Below are positions 30,049 through 51,168 of a stretch of DNA of 64,000 nucleotides, piece after piece. Both the position numbers and the translations under genes were made by a program. The DNA lies in NCBI GenBank assembly GCA_009911715.1, contig CP047880.1:1364001-1428000 (forward strand). The letters run 5' to 3'. The first letter of the stretch is position 1, and the number at the start of each line of letters is the position of its first letter. Origin of the DNA: Methanomassiliicoccaceae archaeon DOK (GTDB taxonomy: Archaea > Thermoplasmatota > Thermoplasmata > Methanomassiliicoccales > Methanomethylophilaceae). Below the pieces are notes generated by a model. The model was not told where the DNA came from, searched no databases, and saw only the letters and a program-made list of their open reading frames with translations.

Positions 30049-30318
30049 GGTAGCCGCAGGGCAGCTGAGGAAGTTCCCCTCTCCAAGGGCAAGGTGGACG
30101 GACGCAAGTCCGTGCGGCGAGAGCCGTGGCAAGGGCACAGAAACGACACAGACCCGGTCCAAGGATGATCCGCTAGGCGGTGACGTTCCCGGGGATTTGG
30201 TGAAACGGCGACTCCCCACCGGAGCAAGTCCGCACAGCGGGGCAGACCGGCCCGGGACCCGCGGGTAGGACGCTTAGTTGAATGTCACCTGAAACAGAAA
30301 GGGGGCTACTACCATCAC
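30026..30318 (+). ncRNA. rnpB: RNase P RNA (archaeal type A)
   Basis: This is the catalytic RNA that matures tRNA 5' ends. Conserved blocks seen: TGAGGAAGTTCCCC (30066-30079, CR-I region), CACAGAAACGACA (30136-30148), GGGTAGGACGCTTAG (30263-30277) and the universal 3' block ACAGAAAGGGGGCTAC (30294-30309). GGTAGCC at 30049-30055 can pair with GGCTAC..C near 30304-30313, closing the P1/P4-side ends. A TATA at 29994-30002 predicts a start around 30024. Ends are approximate. Length of about 290 nt suits type A RNA. Confidence 0.88.
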
Positions 30319-30350
30319 TCGGCTCTTCATATCCACACGAGGGACCACAC

Positions 30351-31565
30351 ATGATGCTGAACCGCTGTCCGAAGTGCTCGCCAGAAACCGGGATCAGGAC
30401 CGTCCCGCCCGAGGAGACCCTCGAGAAGGTCCTGCCGCTGCTGAAGACGGCCGGCCTCGGCGAGCCCGAGGACATCACGGGCAAGGACGACGTGGGGATC
30501 CCCGTGTTCTCCGTGGACAGGCAGGAGACCGCCCTGGGCGTCCCCAAGTACTACAACGGCAAGGGCGTGACCAGGGACCAGGCGCTCGCATCCGCCGTCA
30601 TGGAGTCCCTCGAGAGGTACAGCGCCGAGATGCGCGACTCGGACGAGGTCGTCTACGGCACGTACGAGCAGGCCTGCGACGTCATGATGACCGTGGACCC
30701 CAAGGACCTCATCCTCCCGATCCCCATCCTGGACAGGTACATGAACGACACCATCGCCTGGACCGAGGGGTGGGAGATGTTCAGGGGATGCCCCATATGG
30801 GTCCCTGCATGCGCGGTGTACTATCCGTACTATCCGGACGGCGACCTGCAGCTCTTCAGGTTCCACACCAACGGCATAGCGTCCGGGAACACCCTCGAGG
30901 AGGCCATCCTCCACGCCCTGTTCGAGGACATCGAGAGGGACGCCTGGTCCATATGCGAGTACATGGACATGACGAAGGGCGATGTCATCGTCGACGATGA
31001 CGACTCCGTCCCCGCGCAGCTGATCGCCAAGTTCGCGGACCAGGGCATCGAGATCCACCTCAAGGACCTGACCAGCGACATCGGGATACCGACCATCGGC
31101 GCGGCTGCCGACGACGTCCGCACCAAGGACCCTGAGATGCTCACCATCGGTGTCGGGACGCACCTCAACCCCGAGATAGCGGCCATCAGGGCGATCACCG
31201 AGGTCGCACAGAGCAGGGCCACCCACAAGCACGGGGCCAAGATCAACGCCCAGCTCCAGAAGGTCACGCAGGACATGGGGTACGAGCGCATCAAAGAGGT
31301 CAACCGCATGTGGTTCGGGGAGAGCAGGAGGAAGATCAGGCTCAGCGAGATCCCCGACAGATCGACCCCTTACGTCCTGGACGACATCGAGGTTGTCCTG
31401 GGCAGCCTCATGAACGCCGGATTCGAGAGCGTCATCGCCGTGGACCTCACGAGGCCAGAGCTGAACGTCCCCGTGGTCAGGATGATCGTCCCGGGACTCG
31501 AGGTCAGCACCATGGACCCCGAGAGGGAAGGCGGCAGGCTGAGGGGCATGTGGCCCCCTCAGTGA
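30351..31565 (+). CDS. ycaO: YcaO-family methanogenesis marker protein 1 (McrA thioglycine formation)
   Basis: This 404-aa YcaO-fold enzyme would activate a peptide backbone amide with ATP. In methanogens this family (marker 1) forms the thioglycine in the McrA active site. Visible ATP-site residues are in SAVMESLERYSAE, HALFEDIERDAWS and AITEVAQSRATHKHG. The N-terminus has CPKC. The open frame extends into rnpB, so ATG 30351 (or 30354), preceded by GAGGGA, is the start. No tfuA gene is adjacent. The presence of the target McrA at 47-48 kb in the same window supports the assignment. Confidence 0.88.
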   Translation: MMLNRCPKCSPETGIRTVPPEETLEKVLPLLKTAGLGEPEDITGKDDVGIPVFSVDRQETALGVPKYYNGKGVTRDQALASAVMESLERYSAEMRDSDEVVYGTYEQACDVMMTVDPKDLILPIPILDRYMNDTIAWTEGWEMFRGCPIWVPACAVYYPYYPDGDLQLFRFHTNGIASGNTLEEAILHALFEDIERDAWSICEYMDMTKGDVIVDDDDSVPAQLIAKFADQGIEIHLKDLTSDIGIPTIGAAADDVRTKDPEMLTIGVGTHLNPEIAAIRAITEVAQSRATHKHGAKINAQLQKVTQDMGYERIKEVNRMWFGESRRKIRLSEIPDRSTPYVLDDIEVVLGSLMNAGFESVIAVDLTRPELNVPVVRMIVPGLEVSTMDPEREGGRLRGMWPPQ

Positions 31566-31595: not shown

Positions 31596-32261
31596 ATGGA
31601 CGGGATTAAGGCGGTCGGATTCGACCTTGACGGCACCTTCATGAGGACGCGCGTGGACTACGCGAGGCTCAACGCCGCCGACCGCGAGGTCTGTCTGGAC
31701 CACGGCATCCCGTTCGACGACATCGATTTCGGGGATTCCCCCAAACGCCCACGCGCACCCATAAGGGCGTGGCTCGAGGAGCACAGCCGCGGCGACGAGT
31801 TCTGTCAGGTGAGCAGGGACATCGACACGGCGTTCACGGAGTGCGAGTGCGAGTTCGTATCGGAGGCCGTCCCCTTCCCGGGATCGGCCGAGTGCCTCCC
31901 GGTTCTGAAATCGATGGGGTACAGGGTCGGGATCCTCACCCGCGGGAGCCTGGAGTACGCCACCAGAGCGCTCGGTCCGCTCTTCGACGAATTCGACGTC
32001 GTCATGGGCAGGGACCATTCCGAGTACGACAACGCCAAGCCGTCCCCGAGGGCGATGGTCGAGTTCGCGGAGGAGCTCGGCGTCGAACCGTCCGAGATCC
32101 TCTACGTCGGTGACAACTCCACGGACTGGATGTCGGCTCACGGTGCCGGGGCAAGATTCGTCGGAGTGAGGACCGGTTCCGGATCGGACGACCTGTGGGC
32201 GTCCGTCGACCCATCCATCCCGGTGATAGACCGCGCGGGGGATGTCGTCCGCCTTCTTTGA
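31596..32261 (+). CDS. HAD-superfamily hydrolase
   Basis: This 221-aa phosphatase-like protein has motif I GFDLDGTFM (DxDGT), motif II GILTRGS (Thr), and motifs III/IV NAKPSPRAMVEF and YVGDNSTDWMSAHGAG. The length and cap insertion (about 20-95) fit the phosphoglycolate phosphatase-like subfamily. The substrate cannot be told. It lies 30 nt after ycaO and is probably co-transcribed. Confidence 0.88.
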   Translation: MDGIKAVGFDLDGTFMRTRVDYARLNAADREVCLDHGIPFDDIDFGDSPKRPRAPIRAWLEEHSRGDEFCQVSRDIDTAFTECECEFVSEAVPFPGSAECLPVLKSMGYRVGILTRGSLEYATRALGPLFDEFDVVMGRDHSEYDNAKPSPRAMVEFAEELGVEPSEILYVGDNSTDWMSAHGAGARFVGVRTGSGSDDLWASVDPSIPVIDRAGDVVRLL

Positions 32262-32459: not shown

Positions 32460-35210
32460 TTACTCTGTTCCGTCTCCGAGCTTGTGGACACGGTCCAGGG
32501 TCTTCATGTGCTCGAGGTCGTCGTACCTGAACCTCTCGAGGTTGTAGGCGAAGGTCCTGTCAGCGGGCATGATCTTCTTGACGACCTGGATGAGGGTGCT
32601 TCCCATGGACATCAGGCCCTTGTTCATGTCGACTCCGAACCTGGTCATTCCGCAGACCACGTGTCCGGGGCTGACGACGTCGTGGGGGTCCAGGACGGTC
32701 TTGATCTCCCTCTCCATGGAAGCGGTGGCGGCGTTGTGGATGACGTCGGTGTTCCAGGCGAAGAAGACTCCGAATCCGGTGGTCCTTCCTCCGTACTTCA
32801 TGGCGACGTCGCCGAGGTAGAAGTTGAATCCGAAGGACAGCATTCCGGTGAGCATCTCGTCGTCCTTGAAGTAGTAGGGCATGAACAGGGTGGTGTTCCT
32901 GTCGACGAGGACTCCGATGACTCCTCCGGCCTCCATCTTCATGTTGACGAATCCCTGGTAGCACTCGTCGGTGAACGCTCCCCAGTGGACGGTGGGCACG
33001 ATGACCTCGGCGGGGATCTCTCCGACTCCGACCCTCCTGGCCCTGAACTCGTAGCACCTCTCCTCCCACTCGTGCTCGGCGATCTCTCCGGCGATCTTCC
33101 TTCCGCCGGCCTTCTCGGCCATGGCGTCGACGGCGGCCTCCTCGAGGTCGTTGTGCTTCTCGTCTCCCTGGAGGGTGACGAGCCAGAGGTTCTTCACGTC
33201 GGGGGCGTGGCAGCCGGCCCTCTTCTGGTTCTCGAAGTGCTTGTAGTCGGACCAGGCAACGTGCAGGGGCCTGACGGACGGGTGGTGGACGAGCTCCTGC
33301 ATGGGTCCGTCCATGTCCTTGAGGTTGTCGAACTCGTAGGCGAGGCACCTGATCTGTCCCATGGGGTGCAGCCTGAAGGTCATCGTACCGATGACTCCGA
33401 GGGTTCCCTCCGCTCCGGAGAAGAACTGGTTCAGGTTGAAGGACGCCCTGTAGGACCCGGTGTCGGGGAATCCGGTGTTGACGACGGATCCGTCGTCCAC
33501 GATGATCTCCGCGTTGACGACGTTCTCCCTGGCGCTTCCGTACTTGTAGGAACCGATACCCATTCCGTTGGTGGAGTACCAGGCGCCGATGGTTCCCGAG
33601 GGGAACGAGGAGGGGTAGGATCCGATGATGTAGCCCTCCTTCATGCAGGCCTCGAGGAGGTTCTTCCATGTGCATCCTCCCTGGACCTTGACGGTGAGGT
33701 TCTCCTTGTCGATCTCGACGACGTGCTTCATCTTGGAGGACATGTCGAGGAGGATTCCGGCGTTGGTGGGCATGCATCCGCCCAGTCCCCAGGAGGCGTT
33801 GCCTCTGGGTGTGACGGCGATTCCGTGCTCGTAGGCGAGGGCCATGACCTGGGAGATCTGCTCCACGGTCTCGGGCCTGACGATGACGTCGGGGATGTTC
33901 TTGAAGGCGAGTCCGGCCTCCTTCGGGAGGGGGGCCATGTCGTGGCTGTAGAGGACCTTGTCCATGCCGCTGACGGAGACGTTGACGGCTCCGACGATGG
34001 CCTTGAGCCTCTCGATGATGGCGGGGGTGACCTGCCTGGAGAGCTTGACGTCCTCCACGGGCCTTCCCATGTAGGCGTCCTCGATCCTCCTGATGAACTT
34101 GTTGGTGGCCTCGTCGCGGTACTTGCTGGGGCACCTGGTGCTGGACCTTCCTCCGAGCTCCTCGGCCTTGTCCGCGGCGGCGTCGTAGTCCGCGTCGGAG
34201 ACCTCTCCGGTCAGCTTGATGGCGACGGTGCTCTTGTCGGGGACGTTTCCGGCGATGTCGAACCCGGCGACTCCATTGAAGGCGTCGATGGCCGTGGCCA
34301 TGTTCCTCAGGGGGACGTACATGGTGGCCGCCTCGGGGTTGACGCAGGCGCCGACTCCGATGTTGCCGAACTTGTCGTCCGCGACGGACTGCTCGGCCTT
34401 CACCGCTCCGGCCTCGGCCATGATGGCGTCGAGGGCCTCGAGGTCCGCGTCGACGAACTCCTCGGCACCCTGGAAGGCGATGATGCTCAGCATGCCGTTG
34501 AAGGAGATTTGCAGGGGCTTGAGCGAGGGGCTCTGCCCGATTGCCTGGAAGACCTCCTGCATCTTCTCCACGGAGGGGAACTCGTATCCGACGGCCTTGG
34601 TCACTCCCATGGGGTGGATCTTGAAGGTGGCCTCGGTGACGATGGCGAGCCTTCCGGAGGACGCGGCGAGGGTCTGGATCATGTTGTATCCGGACATGTA
34701 GTAGCCGATCTCGTCGTATCCGGTCTCCAGGAGCTTGCCGGCGGCGTCGACGGCGCGGATGTTGATGACGGAGTCCTTGACGGTGCCGTACTTGTAGGAT
34801 CCGATGCCCTCGGACTCGGTGTAGATCCAGTCCTCGACGGTGGGGTCCGCTCCTGCGGGGCGGACGCCGATGGTGTATCCCTCGGCCTCGACGGCCTTGA
34901 TGATGGCGCTGAACTTGCATCCCGCCTGGGCCCTGACGACCTGGGCGTCGGTGTCGACGTCGATGAGGGCGTTCATCTCGGACATGTCGACGAGGACGTC
35001 GCCCTCGGTGTGGCTGCCCTTCCTGCTGAGGGGGGAGATGGATCCTCCGGCGGCCATGACCGCGGAGACGACCTTGGAGAGCTCGTCGGCGTTGGCGGGC
35101 TTGACGACAGTCTTGCCCTCGCACTCGGAGACCTTCGAGTTGCCGATCAGGGAGCACACGTGCTCGAGTGTGTCGGCGGACACTTTGGTGCATTCTGCGT
35201 TGCTTTTCAT
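32460..35210 (-). CDS. Duplicated GlcD/D-lactate dehydrogenase-like flavoprotein
   Basis: This is a 916-aa soluble FAD-linked oxidase. Residues about 1-375 and 430-900 are two GlcD/PCMH-type halves; both contain GIGSYKYG and a following FKIHPMG / FRLHPMG segment. The second half has the typical FAD loop TPRGNASWGLGG and a C-terminal FAD-oxidase region; in the first half the loop reads SPLSRKGSHTEGD and is probably degenerate. The SD GGAGGTCA sits 5 nt before ATG 35210. Similar proteins are proposed partners of HdrD in Methanomassiliicoccales energy metabolism; here no hdr gene is adjacent. Substrate unknown. Confidence 0.88.
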   Translation of the reverse strand: MKSNAECTKVSADTLEHVCSLIGNSKVSECEGKTVVKPANADELSKVVSAVMAAGGSISPLSRKGSHTEGDVLVDMSEMNALIDVDTDAQVVRAQAGCKFSAIIKAVEAEGYTIGVRPAGADPTVEDWIYTESEGIGSYKYGTVKDSVINIRAVDAAGKLLETGYDEIGYYMSGYNMIQTLAASSGRLAIVTEATFKIHPMGVTKAVGYEFPSVEKMQEVFQAIGQSPSLKPLQISFNGMLSIIAFQGAEEFVDADLEALDAIMAEAGAVKAEQSVADDKFGNIGVGACVNPEAATMYVPLRNMATAIDAFNGVAGFDIAGNVPDKSTVAIKLTGEVSDADYDAAADKAEELGGRSSTRCPSKYRDEATNKFIRRIEDAYMGRPVEDVKLSRQVTPAIIERLKAIVGAVNVSVSGMDKVLYSHDMAPLPKEAGLAFKNIPDVIVRPETVEQISQVMALAYEHGIAVTPRGNASWGLGGCMPTNAGILLDMSSKMKHVVEIDKENLTVKVQGGCTWKNLLEACMKEGYIIGSYPSSFPSGTIGAWYSTNGMGIGSYKYGSARENVVNAEIIVDDGSVVNTGFPDTGSYRASFNLNQFFSGAEGTLGVIGTMTFRLHPMGQIRCLAYEFDNLKDMDGPMQELVHHPSVRPLHVAWSDYKHFENQKRAGCHAPDVKNLWLVTLQGDEKHNDLEEAAVDAMAEKAGGRKIAGEIAEHEWEERCYEFRARRVGVGEIPAEVIVPTVHWGAFTDECYQGFVNMKMEAGGVIGVLVDRNTTLFMPYYFKDDEMLTGMLSFGFNFYLGDVAMKYGGRTTGFGVFFAWNTDVIHNAATASMEREIKTVLDPHDVVSPGHVVCGMTRFGVDMNKGLMSMGSTLIQVVKKIMPADRTFAYNLERFRYDDLEHMKTLDRVHKLGDGTE

Positions 35211-35272
35211 GATCTTGACCTCCACTGTTCGGCGCAGTGGCTGTATCTGAGAAAAGGGTACCGACTGATGCG

Positions 35273-35710
35273 TTATAAGGGTTTCCCGCTCGGAAAAGAA
35301 ATGAGAGAAAATGAGATAAGCCCGGCCTCCCGGATGAGTCTGGCTATGGAGTCGGGGTCGGCTCTGAACAGGTGCGTGCGGCACCTGCAGTCGGAGCATC
35401 CGAAACCGTCCGCGAAGGGGACCATCCCGCAGGCCTCGGCCATGGACGCCAGGGTGCACTCCCCGATGAAGTCCGGGTACGAGACGTACGCATCGACGGA
35501 GTCGGCGGCCAGGGTGAGACGGTCTATGTGCCAGCGCACCTTCTTCTCGCGGGAGATGTGCCTCGAGACCCTCTGGTCGAGACCCCCCATGGCGCTGCCG
35601 ACGTAGCAGTATGTGCCGCGGGGGAAGTTTATCTCGCCCAGGGCCCCGACCTCCAGTACGGTGTCGGAGCCGAGGGCGATAAGAAGTATGTAGGTTCCGG
35701 GGCGCTTCAT
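35273..35710 (-). CDS. GIY-YIG/DUF123-like protein
   Basis: This 145-aa protein opens TYILLIALGSDTVLEVGALG and GTYCYVGSAMGGLDQRVSRH, which match archaeal DUF123, a GIY-YIG nuclease-like family. WHIDRLTLAADSV and CSDCRCRTHLF follow. Members are small nucleases or structural relatives linked to DNA repair. ATG 35710 overlaps the mmp7 stop (ATGA), so it is the last gene of the marker operon. Its place there may reflect read-through rather than function. Confidence 0.85.
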   Translation of the reverse strand: MKRPGTYILLIALGSDTVLEVGALGEINFPRGTYCYVGSAMGGLDQRVSRHISREKKVRWHIDRLTLAADSVDAYVSYPDFIGECTLASMAEACGMVPFADGFGCSDCRCRTHLFRADPDSIARLIREAGLISFSLISFPSGKPL

Positions 35711-36642
35711 GCGCTTGCGCGACGGCGGTCCTCGTCCTCGACCTGCGAGCGGGTCTTGATGCGGACGATGATGCTGCTGTCGTCGATCTTCGACGGGCTG
35801 ATGTCGGCGATCTCGCCGAGCTTCCTGCCGTAGATCTCCACGTTCTCGAGGTACTCCCTGTGCTCCTTGTACGGGATCTTGATCCTGATCCCGTCCAGGT
35901 GCAGGACCATCGGTGACGGCCTGAGGCACATGTTGATCGGCTCGTACTCCTCCAGGACGGTCTTGACCTCCGCGGGGTGAACGAACAGCGGATCCTCCTC
36001 CAGGCTGCGCTTCTTCTCCTTCAGGACCGCCTCCATGGTGTCGGCGATCTCCTCCAGCTTGGCCCTCTCCGGCGGCGTCCTCATCCTGGCGGCCTTGCGG
36101 CCGACACCCGTGACGATGGCGTCGCATGTGTCCTCGATGCCCTCCGGGACGGGTCCCGACACGAGCACGGTGGGGGCGTGGATGTCCCTCATGAGCTCGG
36201 CCTTTGTCTCGACGCAGCTCTTGAAGTTGCCCATCATGAAGATGACCCCGTCGTACTCGTCGAGCGTGAGCCTCTCGGTCATCGAGATCTGCGACGTGGC
36301 CTTGCCGCGTCCCCTGGCCATACCCATGACCACTGTCACGGCGCCGTACCTCCTCAGCTCCTCCGCGATGTCGCAGATGGGGTGGGGCATGTGGTGCCTT
36401 CCCAGCGTGGGTCCGACCACGGCGATCTCCGTCCCGGCGAGCGGGACGCTCTTGACGACTCCGCCGATGTCGTTGCAGACCTTCTCGATGGCCTCCCTGT
36501 CCTCCTCGGGCACCGACATGATGACCGTGAGCATCTGGGAGCTCCTGTTCTTCTGGAGGACGACGCCTCCGACATCCTCGATGAGCTCGTAGAGCTCCTC
36601 GGAGCGGTAAACACCGCCGTCGTACATCATGACCTCAAACAT
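35707..36642 (-). CDS. mmp7: Methanogenesis marker protein 7
   Basis: This is a 311-aa protein of the methanogen-restricted marker 7 family (TIGR03274-type; usual length about 300). It is soluble, with segments such as MFEVMMYDGGVYR, HPICDIAEELRRYGAV and IFMMGNFKSCVETK. Function is unproven; the conserved cluster with AtwA and McrC ties it to MCR assembly or activation. It overlaps the mmp17 stop by 8 nt and the GIY-YIG start by 4 nt. Assignment is by length, order and sequence recollection. Confidence 0.85.
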   Translation of the reverse strand: MFEVMMYDGGVYRSEELYELIEDVGGVVLQKNRSSQMLTVIMSVPEEDREAIEKVCNDIGGVVKSVPLAGTEIAVVGPTLGRHHMPHPICDIAEELRRYGAVTVVMGMARGRGKATSQISMTERLTLDEYDGVIFMMGNFKSCVETKAELMRDIHAPTVLVSGPVPEGIEDTCDAIVTGVGRKAARMRTPPERAKLEEIADTMEAVLKEKKRSLEEDPLFVHPAEVKTVLEEYEPINMCLRPSPMVLHLDGIRIKIPYKEHREYLENVEIYGRKLGEIADISPSKIDDSSIIVRIKTRSQVEDEDRRRASA

Positions 36643-37201
36643 CGTCGGAACCTCCCATCGCCTTGTGGACCTGCATCCCCCTCTCGATCATCTCGGGCAG
36701 GAGGACCTCCTCCGTGGCCACGACCGTTATCACGTTGCCACTGATCAGGGTCTTCCTGTTCTTGATTCCCTCTGGCATCGTCCTCCAGATGGCTCCCATG
36801 ATCTCGCGCCTGTCGTCCTCTCCGGAGGCGACGACGATCGCGCTCACGTCCTCCTCCTTGGCGCCCTGGACGTCCATGTCGAACCTGGTCTGCTGGTACA
36901 CGGCCTTCCTGCCGTACCTGGCCCAGAGCTCCTTCAGGATGTCCGGAGCGTAGCGCTCCTGGGTGATCGTTATGTGCACGCCGCCGACGTCCGTCCTGAC
37001 GGTGGCGACGTCCCCGATGGTCTTGGCGGACGGGGCCGCCCTGAGGACTATCGAGAAGATGAACAGGGGCGTGGCCGGCTCCAGCGTCAGCTGGACCTTG
37101 TCGATCAGCACCGCCTTGTTCAGGTCGCTCATGATGTCGTCGAAGAGCTTGACGTAGGCTTCGTTGCCGTACGGGTCGCCTCCGATTATCTCTATGTCCA
37201 T
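36635..37201 (-). CDS. mmp17: Methanogenesis marker protein 17
   Basis: This 188-aa protein starts MDIEIIGGDPYGNEAY and includes DVGGVHITITQERYAPDIL. Length and cluster position match marker 17 (about 185 aa). No catalytic motif is evident and there is no membrane segment. It lies 9 nt downstream of mmp15 and overlaps mmp7. In other methanogens these small markers copurify with or neighbour the MCR activation complex (established as association, function open). Confidence 0.85.
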   Translation of the reverse strand: MDIEIIGGDPYGNEAYVKLFDDIMSDLNKAVLIDKVQLTLEPATPLFIFSIVLRAAPSAKTIGDVATVRTDVGGVHITITQERYAPDILKELWARYGRKAVYQQTRFDMDVQGAKEEDVSAIVVASGEDDRREIMGAIWRTMPEGIKNRKTLISGNVITVVATEEVLLPEMIERGMQVHKAMGGSDDV

Positions 37202-37210
37202 GAGACCGCC

Positions 37211-38434
37211 TCACAGGAACCCGGAGCTCAGCAGCGCGCCGCCGACCGCACCGATGTACTGGGAGTCCGGCGGGACGATGGGCTTCTCCCCGAGGACCTC
37301 GCCGACCTGGGTCACCAGACCGGAGATCAGGGACGTTCCGCCCACCTGGATGATGGGGTGCCTGACGTCGATCTCCTGGAGCTGCTGCTCGTAGACCTGC
37401 TCGGCGACGGAGTGGCATGCGGCTGCCGCCACGTCCTCGAAGCTCTTCCCCTCTCCGAGGGTGGTGACCAGGTCCTGGATTCCGAAGACGGAGCAGTAGG
37501 AGTTCATCTTGGCGTTCCTCCAGTCGCCCTTGTCGGCGAGCGCTCCGAGCTCGGTGACGTCGATCTTCATCCTCCTGGAGGTCATCTCCAGGAACCTTCC
37601 GGAGGCTCCAGCGCAGATTCCTCCCATGGTGAAGTTGTCGGGGACCCCGTCCCTGACGGTGATGGCCTTGTTGTCCATACCGCCGATGTCGATGATGGTG
37701 GCCTCCCCCCTCTGCCTGTCGGCGAGCCAGACCGCTCCCTTGGAGTTGACGGTCAGCTCCTCCTGGACCAGCTTCGCGTTGAAGTGGTCGCCGAGGGTGA
37801 ACCTTCCGTACCCGGTGGTTCCGATGGCCTCGATGTCCTTCAGCTCGACGCCCGCCATCTTCATGGCATTCTCGAGGACCTGGGTGGCGGACTTGACGAC
37901 GTCGCCCGACGGGGTCCAGTCCTTTCCGATGATCTTGTTGTCCTGCATGATGACCGCTTTCGTGGTCGAGGAGCCGGAGTCGAGTCCGGCGGTGAGACCG
38001 GTCTGCCTCTCCCTGGCCAGGAGCTCCTTCCTGGTGACGATGGTGACGAGGGCCTCCATCCTCGTGAGCAGCTGGGACGCCTTGAGCCTCTCCGTGAAGG
38101 AGTAGGTGACAACGGGCAGCCTGGTGTGCTCCTGGATGAACCTCCTCAGCTCGTTCCTTACGAGGGCGGCCTCGGCGCACCTGAAGCAGGTGGTGATGAA
38201 CACGGCGTCGGCGTCGTACTTCTCGTCCGCGAGCTGGACGGCCCTGGCGATCATCAGCTTGAGCTGGGGGGAGCGGGGGTTGAACCCGAACCTCTTGACA
38301 GCCTCGTCGATGTCCGCGGCCGACACGTCGGGGTAGACGATCTTGGCTCCGACCGACCTGGCGGCCTTCTCTATCTCGTACTGTACGCTGCTGTACTCGG
38401 TACCGCATGAAAGCTGTGCGATCTTGATTGTCAC
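37211..38434 (-). CDS. mmp15: Methanogenesis marker protein 15 (BadF/HgdC-type ASKHA ATPase)
   Basis: This 407-aa protein has a BadF/BadG/HgdC-type ATPase domain: [16 protein letters not shown] (phosphate 1) near 150, [35 protein letters not shown] and [10 protein letters not shown]. The N-terminal part (about 1-140) contains [12 protein letters not shown]. Such ATPases drive electron transfer from Fe-S clusters, which suits reductive activation of Ni-F430 in MCR. The start is GTG 38434, preceded by GGAGGGA at 5 nt and overlapping the mmp5 stop (GTGA). Confidence 0.88.
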
Positions 38435-38865
38435 TGCAGTCCCTCCAGGAACTCTTTGGTCTGAGCGACGAAGTTGACGGCCTGCTCGTCGTCCTCGGGG
38501 TAGCTCACGTGCAGCGCGGGGATTCCGCGCCTCTTGATCAGGTACTTCACCATGAGGTTGGACCTCTCGCACCCGACGCATCCGAAGCTGTAGGGGCAGT
38601 CGTCCATGATGATGGCGGCGTCCGCCTCATCGATCATCGGCCCCCACAGGGCGAGCCTTCCCCTGATTCCGGAGGGGACCTCGACTCCCGCGTACTTCAG
38701 ACCCTTGACGACGTCGTCGAGGGTAACGTTCATGGGTGGCATGTCCACTTCAAGGTTGTCGACCCTCTCCTGGATGGCCGCCATCGCGCTGAGGGGCTCA
38801 TGCCCGAACCTCTCAACCAGATCGAACAGCACCAGGCTGTTCGGCGGATCTATGAAGACCTTCAT
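38431..38865 (-). CDS. mmp5: Methanogenesis marker protein 5
   Basis: This 144-aa protein begins [20 protein letters not shown] and contains a Cys cluster [14 protein letters not shown], followed by [19 protein letters not shown]. The length matches marker 5. The cysteine pattern suggests Fe-S or thiol chemistry. ATG 38865 follows GAGGTG and overlaps the mmp6 stop by one base. It is a member of the MCR activation gene cluster; biochemical role unknown. Confidence 0.87.
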
Positions 38866-39284
38866 CACTGCACCTCGCAAATCTTCTTGAAATCGTTTAC
38901 AGGAATGCGTTTCTTCTCCGCGGGGGGCACGTACTTGGCGCCCTCCTCGACCCTGTCAAGGGCGTACTGGATGTGTGCGAGCAGCGCCCACTCCTCCTCC
39001 AGCTGCGCGTATCCGGGCCTGGTCCCGTGCTGGGCCCTGCACCTGCGGGGGTCGCTGCACGGGTATGCCCTGACCTTCGAGAAGACCTCGTGCGGGTACT
39101 TCTCCCTGACCTTGGCCAGGATGCGCAGCACGGTCTCCCTGGGGGCCTCCACGAGGCACCCGTAGCATGTCTCCTTGATGATCGCCGCCTCGCCGTAGGA
39201 ATGCACCATGCGGGACAGCTGGTCCGGCGTGAGCATGGACCTGGGCGATATCATGAACAGTCTCGTCTCCCTCTCCTCGCTCAT
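38865..39284 (-). CDS. mmp6: Methanogenesis marker protein 6
   Basis: This 139-aa protein starts [18 protein letters not shown] and has cysteines in KETCYGCLVEAP and PCSDPRRCRAQHG. Its C-terminus has GYAQLEEEWALLAHIQYALD. The length fits marker 6 (about 132-140). The ATG overlaps the stop of mmp3 (ATGA). The role is unproven beyond its constant linkage to the AtwA/McrC cluster. Confidence 0.87.
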   Translation of the reverse strand: MSEERETRLFMISPRSMLTPDQLSRMVHSYGEAAIIKETCYGCLVEAPRETVLRILAKVREKYPHEVFSKVRAYPCSDPRRCRAQHGTRPGYAQLEEEWALLAHIQYALDRVEEGAKYVPPAEKKRIPVNDFKKICEVQ

Positions 39285-40798
39285 AGTTCCTCCTCCGTGA
39301 TGTAGACGACGTCCTCCTCCTTCAGGTCCTTCATTAGCCTGTCGAGGTCGTCGACGAACTTTCCGACGATGTTGGTTCCGTAGGGCTCCTCGCCGGTGGG
39401 TCCGAAGTCCTTGCTGTCCTCCAGCCTGATACCGATGAGCCCGTGGTGGGGCCTCGCCTGGTTGGTGAGGCCGATGTCGCCGCGTTTGATCTTCTTGAAC
39501 GGGTCCTGCGGGTACAGGTTCTTCCCCCTGACCTCGTCCCCGTAGAAAGTAACCATCGGGAGTCCCTCGAAGGTGAACTGGACCTTCAGTATCCCGATGG
39601 GCTTGTGGCTGAGCCCGGTGACCTTCTTGAAGTAGTGCTCGCTGATGGGGTCCTTCTTGGATATCTGCACCCTGAAGACCCTGTCCTTCGGCACCCCGAA
39701 GGTCTCGACCTCGCCCTTCTTCAGGGCCTCGATGGTGTTCTCCGGACCCTGCTCCGCTATGATGGCGTCGTCCGACGTGTCTCCGGTCCTGACCTGCTTT
39801 ATGCCCCTGGACTCCAGGAACTTGGCGCCCTCCGCCTGGGTCATCCCGACCGAGAGCGCCCTGGCGGGCTCCGTGACGACGGTCATCCTGCTGCCTGCCG
39901 GGGCGTGGGCGACGATCGCGCGCCCCATGGCGACCTGTCCGGCGGCGTTGTGCGAGAGCGAGACCTGCCTCCTCTCCTTGTACATGTAGAGGCGGCCGCC
40001 TCCGACGCCGTCGTACCTGACCGTTACCGCTCCGACATCCCTTACCTTGCTGTCCTCCTGCGGGATGTCGACATCCATGTCCTCCGAGCATGCCAGGAAG
40101 CTTCCGGTGGCCTCGGTGACCCCCATGGTCCCCTCGGACGAGAGGATGAGGAGGTGCTCGGCGGACTCCGGGGACTCCTGGTCCAGGACGATCTTGACGT
40201 TGGTCTCCACCCTGTAGCCGTCCTCGAGCTTCATGCTCAGGTCGTCGGTGACCTTCACGTTCTCCGTGCTGGTCTCGGACATCAGCGGGTGGACGGACAG
40301 GATTTTGTCGCCCTCCCTGATGTCGTCCAGGATGTGCCTGCCGACGGTGATCCTCCCTATTACGCCCTGGCCGGCACCGTAGCTGCCGGAGTGGTTGTCG
40401 CGGGCGATCATCAGGTAGGTGGTGTGGTTGTCGAATCCTCCGAGCGAGAGGAAGCAGTCGTAGGTCCTGTAGGAGTACGTGCCGCGGTCGGTCTCCAGCT
40501 CCGTGGGGAACGATCCGAAGGCGACGATCTCGTGGGTGACCCACCTGGTGTTGACGCTGGACATCCTGTCGATGAGCTGCGTCCTCCACATCTCGGCCTC
40601 GGGGGTGTCGTTCAGATGCATGACGAACGACCCGCGCTCGGTCTCGAACTCGAAGTCCCTGGTCTCGGAAACCACCCTCTCCTCTGAGAGATGGACCGCG
40701 ATCAGGGTGCCCTTGACGTAGGGCTCGCCGGCGATGGCGGTCTTGAGGGTCGATCCGGCCCTGAGCTTCTTCTCCACGCCGTTGACTGTTACGATCAT
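39281..40798 (-). CDS. mmp3: Methanogenesis marker protein 3 (UPF0288)
   Basis: This is a 505-aa protein of the UPF0288/marker 3 family, length exactly typical. An N-terminal ubiquitin-like segment ([20 protein letters not shown]) is followed by cyclophilin-like beta domains ([20 protein letters not shown], then [14 protein letters not shown]) and a C-terminal region with [20 protein letters not shown]. It may act as a folding helper in MCR maturation (inference from the cyclophilin resemblance). It overlaps both mcrC and mmp6 by 4 nt. Confidence 0.9.
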
Positions 40799-41421
40799 CT
40801 GTGCTCACCCTCCGGCAGCATGGACTGCACCTTGGAGACGATCTCGTCCAGCTTATCCTGCGGGGTCGTTACCCCCCTGACGACGCCGGTGACGATCTCC
40901 ACGATCTCGCCCTTGGTCTGGATCTTGTCCTCGGGGGGCATGACGTACTTCGTCTTGCACCCGATCGCTGCGAAGTCCTCATAGTCCACGGGGCACTGCG
41001 CGACGATGATGGCGGGGACGTCCACGTTCCTGAGGATCAGCCTCGCCTTGTACACTATGTGGTTGCGGACGTTTCCCAGGTGGATCAGGGCGACCTTGTA
41101 CTGCTGGATCCTGTCGGCCTCGATGGGATCCAGTCCGAAGCAGGACCCGGTGGTGACGTCGGGGGCGTCCGCGGGCACGCCGGATCCGGCGTTGACGACG
41201 AGGACGCTCGTGTCGATCCCCTCCTCCCTGAGGGCGTACGTGATCTCGCAGACGGGTTTGGTGATGTGCCTGCGGCCGGGGCCCATGGCTATGGCCACGA
41301 CGTCCCTGCCGGACTCGGAGATGGTCGCCCTCTGGGCGAGCCCCCCTCCGACACCGAGACCCATCGACTCCCTGCACTCCACGAAGCTGAGATGCCTTCC
41401 CATCTTCTGCTTCATGGTCAT
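40795..41421 (-). CDS. mcrC: Methyl-coenzyme M reductase protein C (McrC)
   Basis: This 208-aa protein of the McrC family contains [40 protein letters not shown] and [15 protein letters not shown], with [12 protein letters not shown] downstream. McrC is part of the MCR activation complex with AtwA. In many methanogens it lies inside mcrBDCGA; here it sits between atwA and mmp3. ATG 41421 overlaps the atwA stop (ATGA), with an alternative ATG at 41415. Confidence 0.92.
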
Positions 41422-43025
41422 TCACCTTCTGGGACCGGCTCCATTGCGAACTCTTCGAGGACCTCGTCGGGCTTACCGATGGCGACGACCTTGCCACCCT
41501 TCATGAAGGCCGCGCGGTCGCTGCAGTTGAGGACGAAGTCCATGTCGTGACTGACCACGATGAACGTCTCGCCGAGGGTCTCCCTCGCGCGGATGACGGA
41601 CTTGGCGATGATCGTCTTGGTGATGGGGTCCATGGTTCCGGTGGGCTCGTCCAGGATGATGATACGGGGCTCCTTGATGAGGACCTGCGCGAAGGCGATC
41701 CTCTGGCACTCTCCCACGGAGAGCGAGTCGGGATAGGTGTACAGGAGCTTCTCGATGTGCTCCTTCTCGAACCCGACGCTCATCAGGACCTGGATGGCCT
41801 TGACCTTGGCGAGCTCGGCGGGCATCTTCATGCCGATGCATGTGGACAGGTTCTGGAGGACGGTGTCGAAGGGGTACAGTGTGTACTCCTGGTGCAGGAA
41901 CCCGATGTAAGGGGTGGCTCTCCCCTTCCCGGCGAACCCGGACTCGGACATGTCGACCCAGTCGTCTCCGATCCTGATCTTGACGGACCCGGATGTGGCG
42001 GGGGTCATCCCGGCGATCATCCTGGATGTCGTGGTCTTCCCCGCTCCGGAGTACCCGACCAGGGCGAAGACCTCCCTCTCCTTGATGTCGAAGGACACTC
42101 CGTCCACGGCCTTGACGACTCCCCTGACGACAGAGAAGTAGTGCTTGGCGGCGTTGTCGAGGACGATGAGCGGGTCTCCGAGGTCCCCGTGCTGGGTCTT
42201 CTCGAAGTGGTAGTCCTTCATGAACTCGGTGGTGACCTCCTTGGGCTCGCCCTGCTTGACGACGTTTCCGGCGTCCAGCAGGATCGCCTCGTCGGCCATC
42301 CTCTCGATGGCCTCGGGCCAGTGGGAGGCGAAGACCATGCAGATGTTCTTCTCCCTGACGTAGTCGATGAGTCCCTTGTGGACGATCTCGGCTGTGGTGG
42401 GGTCGAGGGTTCCGGTGGGCTCGTCAGCCAGGAAGAACAGGGGCTCCTTGGCGAGCTGCCTGGCCATGACGACCCTCTGCTTCTCCCCTCCCGACAGGTC
42501 CCTGGCTATATGGGTCGTCCTGTGGGTCATGTTGACGAGCTTGAGCATGTCGATGGCCCTGTTGATGCGGTCGTCCCCCTGGACGTCCGCGGGGATGGCC
42601 TCCATGACGTTCTCGACGACGGTCATGTCGCCGAAGAGCGCGAAGGTCCTCTGGAGCATGATGGCTATGTGTCCCTTGACGGCCTGTCTGAGGGGGTCGT
42701 CGACCTTGAGGGACCAGAAGTCCACGGCGAGGGTCTCCGTCTCCCCTCCGCACTTGCAGCATTTCGCTCCCTTAATGGGGAGGTCGAGGTCGCCGCATTT
42801 CTTGCAGCGGTTGACGTTGTAGATCACGCGTCCGCTGTCGGGAGCGTACTCCTCGCTCCCCCTGAGCATGTGAATGAGAACACTCTTACCGGCGGCGCTC
42901 TTTCCGATGAGACCGAGGATCTTCCCGGTGGAGAGCTTGGCGCTGACGTCCTTGAGCACACAGCGCCCGTCGAACGACTTGGAGACGTTCTCGATAACCA
43001 GTAGGTCTACCGACTCTTGAGCCAT
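41418..43025 (-). CDS. atwA: AtwA (component A2), ATPase for MCR activation
   Basis: This 535-aa soluble ABC ATPase has two nucleotide-binding domains. NBD1: [16 protein letters not shown], signature [25 protein letters not shown] Cys-rich insertion ([20 protein letters not shown]) lies near residue 75. NBD2: [40 protein letters not shown]. Component A2 supplies ATP-dependent activation of MCR. A minus-strand TATA (AGTTTATATCGG, about 43047-43058) lies about 26 nt before ATG 43025, so the operon starts leaderless. It is the first gene of the marker operon. Confidence 0.94.
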
Positions 43026-46663: not shown

Positions 46664-46951
46664 TTATCCGCCTCCAGAGGGCATCATCTCGGAGATGTCG
46701 ACTTCCTGTGTCTCCCGCTTGATGTCCTCGATGGACTTCATCTGTCCACGCTCGGACACCTTGCGTTCCTTGAAGGAGACCTCGATGTACTCCGACGGAT
46801 CCGCGGGGATCAGGGTCGTGGCGTCGTAGTAGAGGTCGGTGAAGTCCAGTTTGACCCAGACCCTCCCGTCCTTCTCCTGGACGTCAGTCACCTTGCCCAC
46901 AGTGGAAGTGGGGGTGTACTTCAGCAGGTCGCCAACCTTCAACGAGATCAT
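46664..46951 (-). CDS. DUF2098 protein, last gene of the mcr operon
   Basis: This 95-aa protein begins [20 protein letters not shown] and contains [20 protein letters not shown], an SH3-like barrel pattern typical of the methanogen DUF2098 family. The acidic C-terminal tail ends MMPSGGG. Its ATG overlaps the mcrA stop (ATGA), so it is translated with McrA. A binding or assembly role for MCR is plausible from this coupling, but the family is uncharacterised. Confidence 0.8.
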
Positions 46952-48606
46952 CCCTTGATGACTGCGCTTCTCTCTCCGGCGGGCTGGAACTCCCTGAGAG
47001 CTCCACGTCCGATCTCCTTCGTCACGTTGGCGAAGTCGAAGACCAGAGCGGGGTCAGCGAAGGCGACCCTCACGAACGGGTTGGCGGTGAAGGCGTCTCC
47101 GCGAGCGACGTGGGCCGCCTTGGGGATACCGGTGTATCCGGACAGGTGACCGACGTTCATGGCGTAGTTGGGGTAGTTGGGTCCACGGACCTCCATGGGG
47201 AGACCCTCATCAGACCTGTAGGCGAACGAGTTGGCGGAACCGCACTGGTCCTGGAGGTCGAATCCGTAGAATCCGAGCCTTCCGGTCCTCTCTTTGTGCT
47301 GGAGCATGGAGAGGTACCAGCAGTTCAGACCGCAGTCGGCAACTCCAGTGGCCATAGCTCCGGCGATACCGGTGGCGGCAGCGGAGACGGTGGCCCTCTG
47401 GGATCCTCCGAAGTGGGTCTCCATGACGGCGGGGTAGCGCTCGTACATCTCGAGGGCGTAGGCGTTGACATCGTCACCGAGTTTGATGAGCTCATCCATG
47501 TTGGTGGGGTCCAGTTTGCAGAATCCTCCGTACCTGGATTTGATCTGGTCGATGGCGTAGTAGACGTAGTCCTCGAGGATGTTGTCGGTGTACGCAGCGG
47601 TGGCGTACTGGGTGAATCCGACTCCACCGGACATGTATCCACCGAGGTAGACCTGGTCGAAGACAGCGGCTCCGAGGGCGACAGCCTCGAGGGCGGCGCG
47701 TCCGGGGTCGTCGGGGTAGACACGGTCGGACTGAGCGATATCAGCCATGTATCCGAAGGGAATTCCTCCGGGCTCGTTGGGTCCCCTTGCACGCCTGGCG
47801 GGCATCATGGTTCCCATGGCGAGGGACTGGTGTTTGGCGGAGTACGCGAAGTCAGCGATGGCGGCCTCTCCGGCTGCGAGTTTGTAGGCGGAGATGAAAG
47901 CCATGGAGATCTGCATGGCGGCATGCCTGGAGACGGTAGCTCCATCCATGAGCCTTCCGACGATGGTGGGCACACGGACAGCCTGCATGAGGGTCTTTCC
48001 GATTGCTTTCTTCAGCTGCTCGGCCTGCTCGGCGGGGAACAGTTTGTTGATGTCGATGACGAACCTGGGGTCGATCTCGTCGATGAGCTCGTCGTCTCCG
48101 GAGTAGACTTTGACGTAGGAGTCCCAGACGAGGGCAGGGTTGACCTCGGCCATGTGCTCCTGAACGACAGCTCCACCGGGCATGGTGTGGTTGACGGTCT
48201 CGAGGTAGGTGTTGATGGTCTCAGGTGTGACCTCTTTTCCGAGCCTCCTCTCGATTGTCTGGTGAGGGGAGTCCAGTCCGACGAGGATGGTCCTCCTGAT
48301 GTCGTCCCAGGCCTGCTGGATAGCGCAGTTGTTGACGCAGTGCAGGTCATCGGCCTCGGCGAAGATGTCGGTGTGGGACAGCTGGTAGGGCATCCAGCTC
48401 CTCTGTCCGAGAGGAACTCCGATGTCCTCGTTCATCATGGGGATGCCACGTTTCTTGGCGATCTCCATGGCGGAGTTCTGGAACTCTACCTTGGACTTCG
48501 ACTGTTTCCATCCACCATAGCAGTAGTACTTGGTGGTCATGTCGGTGGGCTCTTCTTTGAACTTCTTTTTGCATGCTTCCATGAACAGCTTCTCTTTTCC
48601 TGCCAT
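46948..48606 (-). CDS. mcrA: Methyl-coenzyme M reductase subunit alpha
   Basis: This is a 552-aa subunit with the F430/substrate channel; MCR reduces methyl-CoM with CoB to methane. Recognisable regions are [29 protein letters not shown] (the methyl-His site), [18 protein letters not shown], and [20 protein letters not shown], which contains the Gly converted to thioglycine. ATG 48606 ([11 protein letters not shown]) is chosen with GGGAGAGTG about 8 nt upstream; an in-frame GTG at 48615 overlaps that SD. Order in the operon is mcrB-D-G-A. Confidence 0.97.
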
Positions 48607-48611
48607 GGTAA

Positions 48612-49388
48612 TCACTCTCCCTTAACCTTCCAGGGCTGGTATCCGCCCAGGGTCCTCAGCTTGTGGATCCTGAGTCCGTACATGGTGACCTCTTTGTCGT
48701 CCCTCATGTCGACACCATCGGCTCTGAAAATGGTGGTCCTCTTCTTCAGGTCGGACATTGCGGCGGGCTTGCCGACGGAGATCCTCCTGTCGAGGGGGAT
48801 GGCGACCTGGTCTTTCACATAGACGACCTCTTTCTTCTGGTCGTCCCAAACGTACCTCTGCCAGCCGTCGAACATCAGTCCGTGCTCGTCGAGACGGCAG
48901 GCGTGTCCGTGAACGGTTGCTCCCCTGATTCCGGTGAGGGCGGGGTCGAAGGTCTCGTTGTCGATCATCTCTTTGGCCATGACCTCAAGGTCCCTCTCAC
49001 GGACCTCGATGATCTGCCTTCCGGAGAGAGTTCCGGTGTCGACTCCCCTGTACCTGGAGAGGTACATCCAAGCCCTCTGGTAGGGCGAGATGGGGGCGAA
49101 GTAGACGGAGTCGGTGAACTGGATGTACCTGACACGGTCTCCGTGCTTGGCTCCCTCGATGGGGACGACGAGTTTCCTGATGGGGCAGTCGGGCTCCTTT
49201 CCCTCCTCGATTGGGGGGTGGATGGACTTGTAGTCCTCTCCAGGGTTCCTGTGTCCCATGATCCTGACGACGTCATCCATGGCGACGTCGCGAAGTTTCT
49301 TCAGTTTGACTTTCGGGTCCATGTATCTGCGCCTGTTTTTAGCAGGTGTAGTGGTTCCCGGATAGAACTGCCTCTTGTAAGCTGCCAT
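48612..49388 (-). CDS. mcrG: Methyl-coenzyme M reductase subunit gamma
   Basis: This is a 258-aa gamma subunit. It contains [57 protein letters not shown] and [19 protein letters not shown], all typical of McrG. AGGAGTGAAT a few nt upstream supports ATG 49388. It ends 5 nt before the mcrA start. Length matches the family. Confidence 0.97.
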
Positions 49389-49833: not shown

Positions 49834-51168
49834 TCACAGTTTCTTCTTCACCTTCTTGGCCTCGGCAGCGACGTACTGCATGGGCTTGCTGAACTCTTCG
49901 ATGTCTCCGAAGACCTCTTTGAAGAGACCGGATGTAGCCTCAGCGGAGAAGGTCTGGGTTCCGCCGTCCAGGCAGTTTCCTGCGGTGATGGCGGGAATCA
50001 CGACGCCCTTGGCGTGCCTGGTAACGACGTGGTTTCCGTGGAACAGACCGGGTCCGCCTCCACCGTAGATGGAGTGGGAGAAGAAGGACATTCCAACTCC
50101 GACACCCTCGGCCCTTCCGTAGTCGACACCGGGAAGTCCGGACTCGTGCTCGAGAAGATCGTTGTAGTACAGGATGGTACTGGGAACACCCTGGGCAGCC
50201 CTGGCGGCTCCGACGTTGACCATAACGGCGGCAACCATTCCGGCGGCGGCGTAGGCGTTCCATTTCGGAAGGTCGTCGGTGGTGTAGACCTTGTATCCGC
50301 TGGGCAGGGTCTCTTTCACGCGGATGACTCCGTCGTCGATGGCCCTTCCCATCAGAGACTCGATAACGGTTCCGACGGTTCCGGTCTTTCCGTTCTTTTT
50401 GACGAGGGAGTAGACCATGTTGTTGGCGTTGAGTCCCTCGTAGGCGAGAGAGAGCAGAGCGCCCCTCTCGAAGTTGCCGATGGTGTCTCCCATCTCGTAG
50501 GATCCGCACTGCTCGAAGATGGCGGAGAGGGCGGTTCCCTGCATGGCGTTCCTGTTGACAAGAGAGACAACGTGGTTGGCCATGATGTTCCTCAGGGCGA
50601 ATCCGGCTCCCTCGTTGTTCTGGGGGACCTCGAGGATGGATTTGACGTTGGCGCCCTGGAATGTGATGGTCTGGGGGTACCTTCCCCAAACGGCGGCTTT
50701 GACCATGTTGGCTTTGTACATCGGAACGTCGAAGGTGTCGATGATGGCCTCGGTGGTCGCGGCGGCGGTGACGGTGAATCCGGTTGTGTACTCGACACCG
50801 GCGTTCATCCTGTCCTCGGGGACGATGACGACCAGGTTCTTTCCGCCAGATTTCACTTTGACGACAGTGTCGTCTCCGTCGTAGACCTGAACTGCGTTCT
50901 TGACGATCTCGGCGATCTTGTCCGCGTTCTCGACGAGAGGGATGTCGATCTCCTTTCCCTTGATGACAACTCCGCCTCCGGTCATGGAGCCGGTCTTGAG
51001 GGCTTTCTCGATGCCGGCCAGGTTGACGGCGACGGTCCTCTTTGTCAGGGACACGATCTTCTTGATCGCGTTGTTGCGCAGCGGACTGATGGCTTCGAGC
51101 GGAACGTCTTTAGCGATGCGTTTGCCGCAGTCGTCATACAAGTCAACTACGTCCTCGTATTTTGGCAT
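49834..51168 (-). CDS. mcrB: Methyl-coenzyme M reductase subunit beta
   Basis: This is the 444-aa beta subunit. It starts [18 protein letters not shown] and contains [40 protein letters not shown] and [20 protein letters not shown], typical McrB. A very strong SD AAGGAGGT is 5 nt before ATG 51168. It is first in the operon, with a hairpin-bearing leader of about 50-55 nt upstream. Confidence 0.97.

Follow-up and report, generated by a model that had tools for sequence, protein, structure and literature searches.

A tandem GlcD-type flavoprotein with one degenerate half, kept beside the MCR-activation genes of Methanomassiliicoccales, and its putative HdrD-like partner

Introduction

What might a flavoprotein do when half of it has lost the site for its cofactor, and why is its gene kept beside the genes for the activation of methyl-coenzyme M reductase (MCR)? 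These questions are raised by a gene for a 916-residue GlcD-type protein in a 64,000-nucleotide stretch of the genome of Methanomassiliicoccaceae archaeon DOK (GCA_009911715.1, contig CP047880.1, positions 1,364,001 to 1,428,000; hereafter the window, from genome G000). With moderate confidence we favor the view that the protein belongs to a two-protein electron-transfer complex of the GlcD/HdrD type that is tied to methanogenesis and has one flavin, a dead structural half and, as second member, an HdrD-like protein termed D1. HdrE is absent from the order, as described in the available text of two papers (PMC4153887, PMC10804542), and how such HdrE-less archaea wire their HdrD-like proteins is a question that their energy metabolism still poses. 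A specific flavoprotein partner for D1, pointed to by orthology, a common operator and a place among MCR genes, makes this wiring testable. Within the GlcD/HdrD kind of system, the present case stands out by an unexpected link to D1 and by a gene position that is conserved beside those for MCR activation.

A degenerate half and a half with an intact FAD loop

The two halves of the protein are homologous beyond chance, with a BLASTP match of 136 bits and 26.7% identity over 273 residues. The Pfam domain FAD_binding_4 is matched twice, once per half, and FAD-oxidase_C once, in half 2, both above the gathering score (197 vs 26.4 bits and 28.9 vs 21.2 bits, respectively). Both halves carry GIGSYKYG and an FxxHPMG segment (FKIHPMG and FRLHPMG), whereas the pyrophosphate loop for flavin adenine dinucleotide (FAD), TPRGNASWGLGG, occurs in half 2 only, its counterpart in half 1 being the degenerate SPLSRKGSHTEG. 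Half 2 is thus the part with the family's FAD signature, and it is also the counterpart of the order's single-copy form. A longer frame of the same gene, with a GTG start and 999 residues, is less likely to be used because of the Shine-Dalgarno and TATA-like elements that stand before the ATG (Table 1).

The loss in half 1 is general. The PRG of the loop is present in 47/47 second halves or single copies and in 0/23 first halves, having gone by substitution in genera g6 and g9 and by deletion in g7 and in g1, the genus of the window; at one locus (L065) PRG is kept and the loop is altered beyond it. Half 1 also evolves much faster, the g1 stem branch in the tree being 0.96 for half 1 vs 0.17 for half 2. 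Its fold appears to be retained nonetheless: AlphaFold gives a mean local confidence (pLDDT) of 88.7 and a global score (pTM) of 0.88 for the full length, and 87.9 and 0.85 for half 1 alone, such that a D-lactate dehydrogenase (D-LDH)-like fold is confidently predicted for both halves. Against D-LDH structures half 1 scores Z 30.4–31.7 over 360–362 residues at 19–23% identity (top 12 rows); the match to mLDHD (8jdc) covers residues 27–476 with internal deletions (Z 31.0, 360 residues). This near end-to-end match indicates a complete but slimmed copy rather than a fragment. Half 2 matches LctD, D-2-hydroxyglutarate dehydrogenase and D-LDH structures at Z 27.0–28.8 (top 15 rows), and a Foldseek search against viral proteins gave good matches to generic FAD oxidases only.

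Half 1 has 20 invariant columns, of which eight fall within residues 162–179 (the GYDxIGYYMSGYN region). Block means of model confidence for this segment are 88 and 84 in the full-length model vs 58 and 63 in that of half 1 alone, the two models having been made from different alignments. The segment may therefore form an interface with half 2.

The original prediction, made from the letters of the DNA, had already described a 916-residue, internally duplicated GlcD-type protein with the two repeated motifs and a single intact FAD loop, and had taken it for a fused inactive/active pair whose first half became structural or binds another ligand. The structure prediction and conservation mapping that it had proposed as checks support the fused pair, and its interpretation as a whole is supported in part.

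Distribution and origin of the fusion

A search of 147 genomes of the order found a match in 144, of which the 137 with strong matches were classed by frame; seven with weak matches only were left out (G017, G054, G064, G108, G120, G128, G137). A frame of at least 780 residues is present in 51/137 genomes (23 in g1, 16 in g9, three in g6 and nine in g7), a single-copy frame of about 530 residues in 72, and a partial or unclear one in 14. Two of the 72 (G045 and G089) have frames that start at a contig end, and their form is uncertain. Among the 40 classed genomes of other families 38 are single-copy, two are partial, and none has a long frame. An assembly artefact, which the original prediction had named as grounds for dropping the fusion, is ruled out by the long frame in these 51 genomes of four genera, and the fusion is genuine. 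This distribution points to the single copy of about 530 residues as the most likely ancestral form, from which the fusion was derived in four genera of a single family. A separate gene for half 1 was not seen in single-copy genomes among the matches listed for a half-1 profile in 102 genomes.

In the tree the half-1 sequences sit inside the fusion-bearing family on long branches. All 23 group together with support of 80/99, and the 22 without G040 with 94/86; in a smaller set the values are 80/99 for 13 sequences and 98/88 for 12. Another tree joins half 1 of G040 to its own half 2 and to G034 (97/94), an alternative that is not rejected (log-likelihood higher by 0.96, p-AU 0.524); G040 half 1 and G034 have the segment CKNTVLVV in common, and G040 half 2 has CKNTLLLV. 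At least one and perhaps two origins of the fusion can be envisaged within the family, the long branches making these groupings unsure.

Outside the order, fusion frames of 816–940 residues occur at four loci (L165 to L168, the first two being near copies). Their first halves are likewise degenerate, without PRG as read, and their second halves are intact. The second halves form a clade of their own (100/98); the first halves group with half 1 of the order, which is flagged as long-branch joining. Since their second halves have another place in the tree and the extent of their first halves is different, these fusions are apparently independent and convergent, as judged from sequence comparison. 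A dead-plus-active fusion that emerged more than once, in the order and seemingly outside it too, offers a good natural case of a homodimer turning into a pseudo-heterodimer with one site.

Two further observations concern single genomes. At L041 (G036:C26, 1516–4289) the long form is broken into two frames. Genome G137 (family f6, 96% complete) has neither a McrA match nor the flavoprotein gene; one missing contig could explain both, and it was not counted.

The HdrD-like protein D1

The original prediction had referred to proposals that enzymes of this type pass electrons to HdrD. The genome of the window has an orphan HdrD-like gene, D1 (G000:C1:96690-97817, with an ATG read at about 97865), which codes for two CCG domains and a Fer4 domain (a 4Fe-4S dicluster) in the layout of HdrD, TfrB and GlcF. 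It lies 1.3 Mb from the flavoprotein gene, or 0.6 Mb the other way round. In relatives outside the order, where none of 13 genomes has a McrA match, a gene for a CCG/4Fe-4S protein of 391–444 residues stands directly 3' of the flavoprotein gene in 6/10 loci read (L159, L160 and L165 to L168). D1 is the best match of this neighboring protein in 9/9 Methanomassiliicoccales genomes (42–51% identity), and in a tree of 21 sequences D1 falls into a single clade with the GlcD-adjacent proteins (100/99), with D2, another HdrD-like protein, and two further ones outside it. D1 is, thus, the ortholog of an ancestral neighbor of the flavoprotein. It was found in 28/31 genomes of the genus (no match in G093 and G097; in G101 only a second paralog at 38% identity) and in 18/18 further genomes, the sets of these surveys overlapping. 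The partnership of the flavoprotein with D1 is well supported, though not proven, by these comparisons together with the operator described below; the earlier pairing with HdrD has, to that extent, gained substance.

Several smaller features belong here. A helicase-like gene, named from the start of its sequence, lies near D1 in the six loci in which D1 was picked. D2 is encoded at L186 (15121–16170) and also at L195 and L196, and the gene upstream of it is presumably a LarA/DUF2088 lactate racemase homolog. Cytochrome b561 and multihaem cytochrome c genes stand upstream of the single-copy relative at L156 (5627–8935). A gene for a GcvH-like lipoyl protein lies directly upstream of the GlcD homolog at L160 (10225–10656, PF01597) and L162 (10265–10693, by likeness).

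A putative operator common to the flavoprotein gene and D1 in one genus

In the genus of the window the sequence upstream of the flavoprotein gene (here also glcD) runs in the order TCTCAT-N4-TCTCATTTY, TATA-like element, Shine-Dalgarno; the putative operator is missing in three (L011, L012, L013) of the 13 upstream sequences listed. The genome of the window has exactly two perfect sites, one before the flavoprotein gene and one before D1 (TCTCATTTTCTCTCATTTC). Within the window itself there is one site at up to two mismatches, with 0.22 expected, and hence none before the mmp or mcr genes.

The surveys covered the 31 genomes of genus g1. As the pattern was derived from sequences upstream of glcD, the sites at D1 are independent evidence. 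At up to one mismatch there are 48 sites: 26 are perfect (14 at glcD, 12 at D1 and none elsewhere), and 22 have one mismatch (three at glcD, 11 at D1, one at glcD on the opposite strand and seven elsewhere). The core TCTCATN4TCTCAT gives 56 perfect sites; it is found at D1 in 28/28 genomes with a placed D1 start and at glcD in 18/26 (17, plus one on the opposite strand). The reversed-pattern control gave one match in each survey.

A third copy of the core lies before a small Cys-rich open reading frame and a radical-SAM-like one, the latter named by motif (L258, 1501–1516; G000:C1:684931-684946), at a homologous place in G000 and its two close relatives G099 and G100 (L269, L270). From their sequence these frames might constitute a locus for a ribosomally synthesized and post-translationally modified peptide under the same control.

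Conserved synteny with the genes for MCR activation

Upstream of the flavoprotein gene and on its strand lie a DUF123 gene and then a series of genes for MCR activation (Table 1). The MCR activation complex of Methanococcus maripaludis comprises McrC, Mmp7, Mmp17, Mmp3, A2 and DUF2098 together with MCR subunits (PMC12176620, available text). On the same strand and within 4.3 kb upstream, mmp7 was found at 38/40 loci taken by place and at 68/80 named-contig loci, the genome sets overlapping. In 12 of the 14 loci without it the available upstream sequence does not exceed 172 bp; it extends to 1608 bp at L067 and to 3347 bp at L103. For the most part mmp7 lies about 0.5 kb away in the family and 0.5–4.2 kb away in other families, in which other genes may stand between the two. 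The adjacency to mmp7, mmp17, mmp3 and mcrC is retained over six families, and from this persistence throughout the order it can be argued that the flavoprotein and D1 serve methanogenesis. Of the earlier suggestion that the gene is expressed alone with a strong Shine-Dalgarno, the predicted own promoter, operator and Shine-Dalgarno speak for the independent expression; its isolation does not hold, in that the MCR-activation genes precede it in a conserved arrangement throughout the order.

Proposed role and alternative explanations

In the reading that we favor, the flavoprotein would be the flavin subunit of a GlcD/HdrD-type complex with its sole FAD in half 2, and half 1 would be a pseudo-subunit, i.e., a decayed tandem copy that keeps its fold and probably fills the position of the other protomer in a homodimeric ancestor. 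The route of the electrons would link the FAD of half 2, the clusters of D1 and a thiol/disulfide couple, probably coenzyme M and coenzyme B (CoM-SH/CoB-SH) and their heterodisulfide CoM-S-S-CoB. A physical complex, one FAD per chain and disulfide chemistry would follow from this scheme; the substrate, the direction of flow and any role in MCR activation would be matters of conjecture within it.

Several observations weigh against this reading. The two genes are unlinked in the order, and the flavoprotein gene has no adjacent partner in the genome of the window; outside the order four of the ten loci (L154, L155, L162 and L156) have no adjacent CCG gene either. D1 falls under every NCBIfam cut-off (the best being TfrB, 201.6 vs 385), with no HdrD model among its matches. 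The core site is absent before glcD in 8/26 g1 genomes, ten core sites lie elsewhere among the 31 genomes, and outside g1 the element stands before neither gene (0/24 genomes), the longest word common to both upstream sequences there being mostly no longer than in mispaired genomes. As for methanogenesis, L103 with its 3347 bp may be a true exception to the association with mmp7, and the co-regulation points to D1 and not to the mmp operon, which weakens the link to MCR.

The genomic place itself invites another proposal, in which the physiological donor for MCR activation is the flavoprotein, be it together with D1 or by itself, and passes electrons from the FAD of half 2 through the clusters of Mmp7, Mmp17 and McrC for the reduction of Ni(II)-F430 to Ni(I). 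The adjacency over six families is what this would predict; however, the operator is held in common with D1 and not with the mmp genes, and flavin couples are usually not low enough in potential. A cryo-EM study of the activation complex describes a cluster path to F430 and, in its available text (PMC12176620), names ferredoxin only as a possible physiological donor, which leaves a place for such a protein, but it names no flavoprotein in the purified M. maripaludis complex. On these grounds we hold the proposal to be unlikely. A version that unites both ideas, with the GlcD fusion and D1 as a dedicated complex that reactivates MCR, drawing on the thiol pool or on a reduced carrier for the electrons that it hands to the clusters of Mmp7, Mmp17 and McrC, half 1 serving to dock, appears doubtful; if true, it would supply the missing physiological electron donor. 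That the protein is instead a maturation enzyme of MCR, e.g., a flavin-dependent desaturase producing the didehydroaspartate of McrA, would suit its place among these genes and near the McrA thioamidation gene; this leaves the HdrD-like partner and the common operator unexplained and is very improbable indeed.

An ordinary D-lactate or glycolate (2-hydroxyacid) dehydrogenase whose N-terminal half is structural and which feeds D1, its place near the mmp genes being incidental, might be expected from the closest solved relatives, which are D-LDHs, and from W715 and R718, which align with the W..R motif of D-LDH (a motif that presumably has a role in those enzymes). The metal-binding and catalytic His motifs of the family (GHxGDGN, FH, GEHG) are, however, absent from half 2 in the alignment to mLDHD chains: it has GVLVDRN against GHVGDGN, Thr against the following His and Phe against the His of TGEHG. 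As read from alignments, the metal-site His are also absent in single copies and in most of the distant relatives. The GlcD equivalog TIGR00387 is matched at 201.4 vs a cut-off of 567.9, and the mmp-adjacent place is retained across the order. This dehydrogenase is accordingly judged improbable, and, with the metal-site His absent, electron transfer with D1 is likelier than metal-dependent 2-hydroxyacid oxidation. Quite improbable, too, is a half 1 that is not dead but provides a further site for redox chemistry or sensing by binding FAD otherwise, or another nucleotide or ligand: its retained fold and the cluster of invariant columns in residues 162–179 could be so explained, but all 23 first halves lack PRG, some of them through loop deletion, and a ligand site would account less well than an interface for the confidence that the conserved segment gains in the full-length model.

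The other GlcD homolog of G000 (L002, 1486–2927; C1, about 298186–299627) belongs to the usual D-LDH type and has the His motifs. Its gene is split over two overlapping frames, by a frameshift or a sequencing error, and a full-length homolog occurs in G137 (L173).

Comparison with known systems

With the D-LDH/GlcD family (mLDHD, 8jdb–8jdy; LctD, 7qh2_C) the flavoprotein shares the FAD_binding_4 plus FAD-oxidase_C fold, half 2 scoring Z 27.5–28.8 and half 1 alone 29.7–31.0 against these chains. It differs from them in the tandem duplication, the lost first FAD loop, the missing metal-site His motifs of half 2 and a score below the GlcD cut-off. A parallel might also be drawn with glycolate oxidase GlcDEF, of which GlcE and GlcF are subunits: one active GlcD, a shorter GlcD-like part and a CCG/4Fe-4S partner (the GlcF-like D1) are common to both, and the GlcE model matches residues 65–262 of half 1, at 76 bits vs a cut-off of 284. 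Unlike in GlcDEF, the GlcE-like half nests within the order in the tree and is fused, D1 is unlinked and the substrate is probably different. A likeness to TfrAB and HdrDE lies in TfrB being the best NCBIfam match of D1; the flavin subunit TfrA is of another fold family.

Complexes of a flavoprotein with an HdrD-like protein, as envisaged here, have been proposed for Verstraetearchaeota (PMC6783470) and for an Archaeoglobi genome with co-located genes, where Methanomethyliaceae and Bathyarchaeota are cited as well (PMC6474303). In their available text these proposals concern other archaea than Methanomassiliicoccales, and, in contrast to the co-located Archaeoglobi pair, the genes here are unlinked, have an operator in common and include a dead fused half. 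The core methanogenesis genes and HdrD copies of the order have been catalogued, the flavoprotein gene not being among them in the available text (PMC4153887). In a published scheme HdrD docks directly on the Fpo-like complex; the HdrD of Methanomassiliicoccus luminyensis named there is WP_019178460 (PMC7374477). A search of mostly open-access literature found no link of this gene to HdrD or MCR activation in the order.

Features of the window

Table 1. Features of the flavoprotein locus (window positions) and fusion frames outside the order (positions within each locus)
Feature	Position	Strand	Basis or remark
GlcD-type flavoprotein, 916 residues, internal duplication	32460..35210	minus	ATG start; Pfam; full-length model
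Half 1, residues 1-385, lacking the FAD pyrophosphate loop but with predicted D-LDH-like fold	34056..35210	minus	
Half 2, residues 386-916, predicted FAD-competent, with C-terminal tail	32463..34055	minus	
FAD pyrophosphate loop TPRGNASWGLGG, half 2, residues 467-478	33777..33812	minus	
Degenerate stretch SPLSRKGSHTEG matching that loop, half 1, residues 59-70	35001..35036	minus	
GIGSYKYG, half 1, residues 135-142	34785..34808	minus	
GIGSYKYG, half 2, residues 551-558	33537..33560	minus	
Shine-Dalgarno GGAGGT, ATG 7 nt further on	35218..35223	minus	read from sequence
TATA-like TTATAA, predicted own promoter, overlaps DUF123 stop codon	35273..35278	minus	read from sequence
Putative operator TCTCATTTTCTCTCATTTC upstream of flavoprotein gene	35298..35316	minus	also at D1, site G000:97992-98010
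DUF123 gene (PF01986), next upstream	35273..35707	minus	family match
Methanogenesis marker 7 (MCR activation complex)	35707..36642	minus	TIGR03274, 306 bits, under cut-off of 349
Methanogenesis marker 17	36635..37201	minus	TIGR03291 above cut-off
Methanogenesis marker 15, activase-like ATPase	37211..38434	minus	TIGR03286 above cut-off
Methanogenesis marker 5	38431..38880	minus	TIGR03271 above cut-off
Mmp3	39281..40798	minus	TIGR03268 above cut-off
McrC	40795..41421	minus	TIGR03264 above cut-off
Double ABC ATPase	41418..43025	minus	synteny
McrA	46948..48615	minus	TIGR03256 above cut-off
McrB	49834..51168	minus	TIGR03257 above cut-off
Fusion frame outside the order, L165	7308-10127		HdrD-like gene next to it
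Fusion frame outside the order, L166	5152-7971		HdrD-like gene next to it
Fusion frame outside the order, L167	8640-11384		HdrD-like gene next to it
Fusion frame outside the order, L168	6013-8460		HdrD-like gene next to it

The double ABC ATPase is taken by us to be AtwA (component A2). On the plus strand, and convergent to the flavoprotein gene, lie a HAD phosphatase gene (31596–32261) and the YcaO gene of McrA thioamidation (30282–31565); a HAD match recurs at 22/26 loci of the family. At 43165–44124, not far from the mcr genes and in divergent orientation to the mmp operon, the plus strand codes for a regulator-like protein with a winged-helix-type N-terminus and DUF4443 plus DUF2111, which is a candidate regulator of methanogenesis genes.

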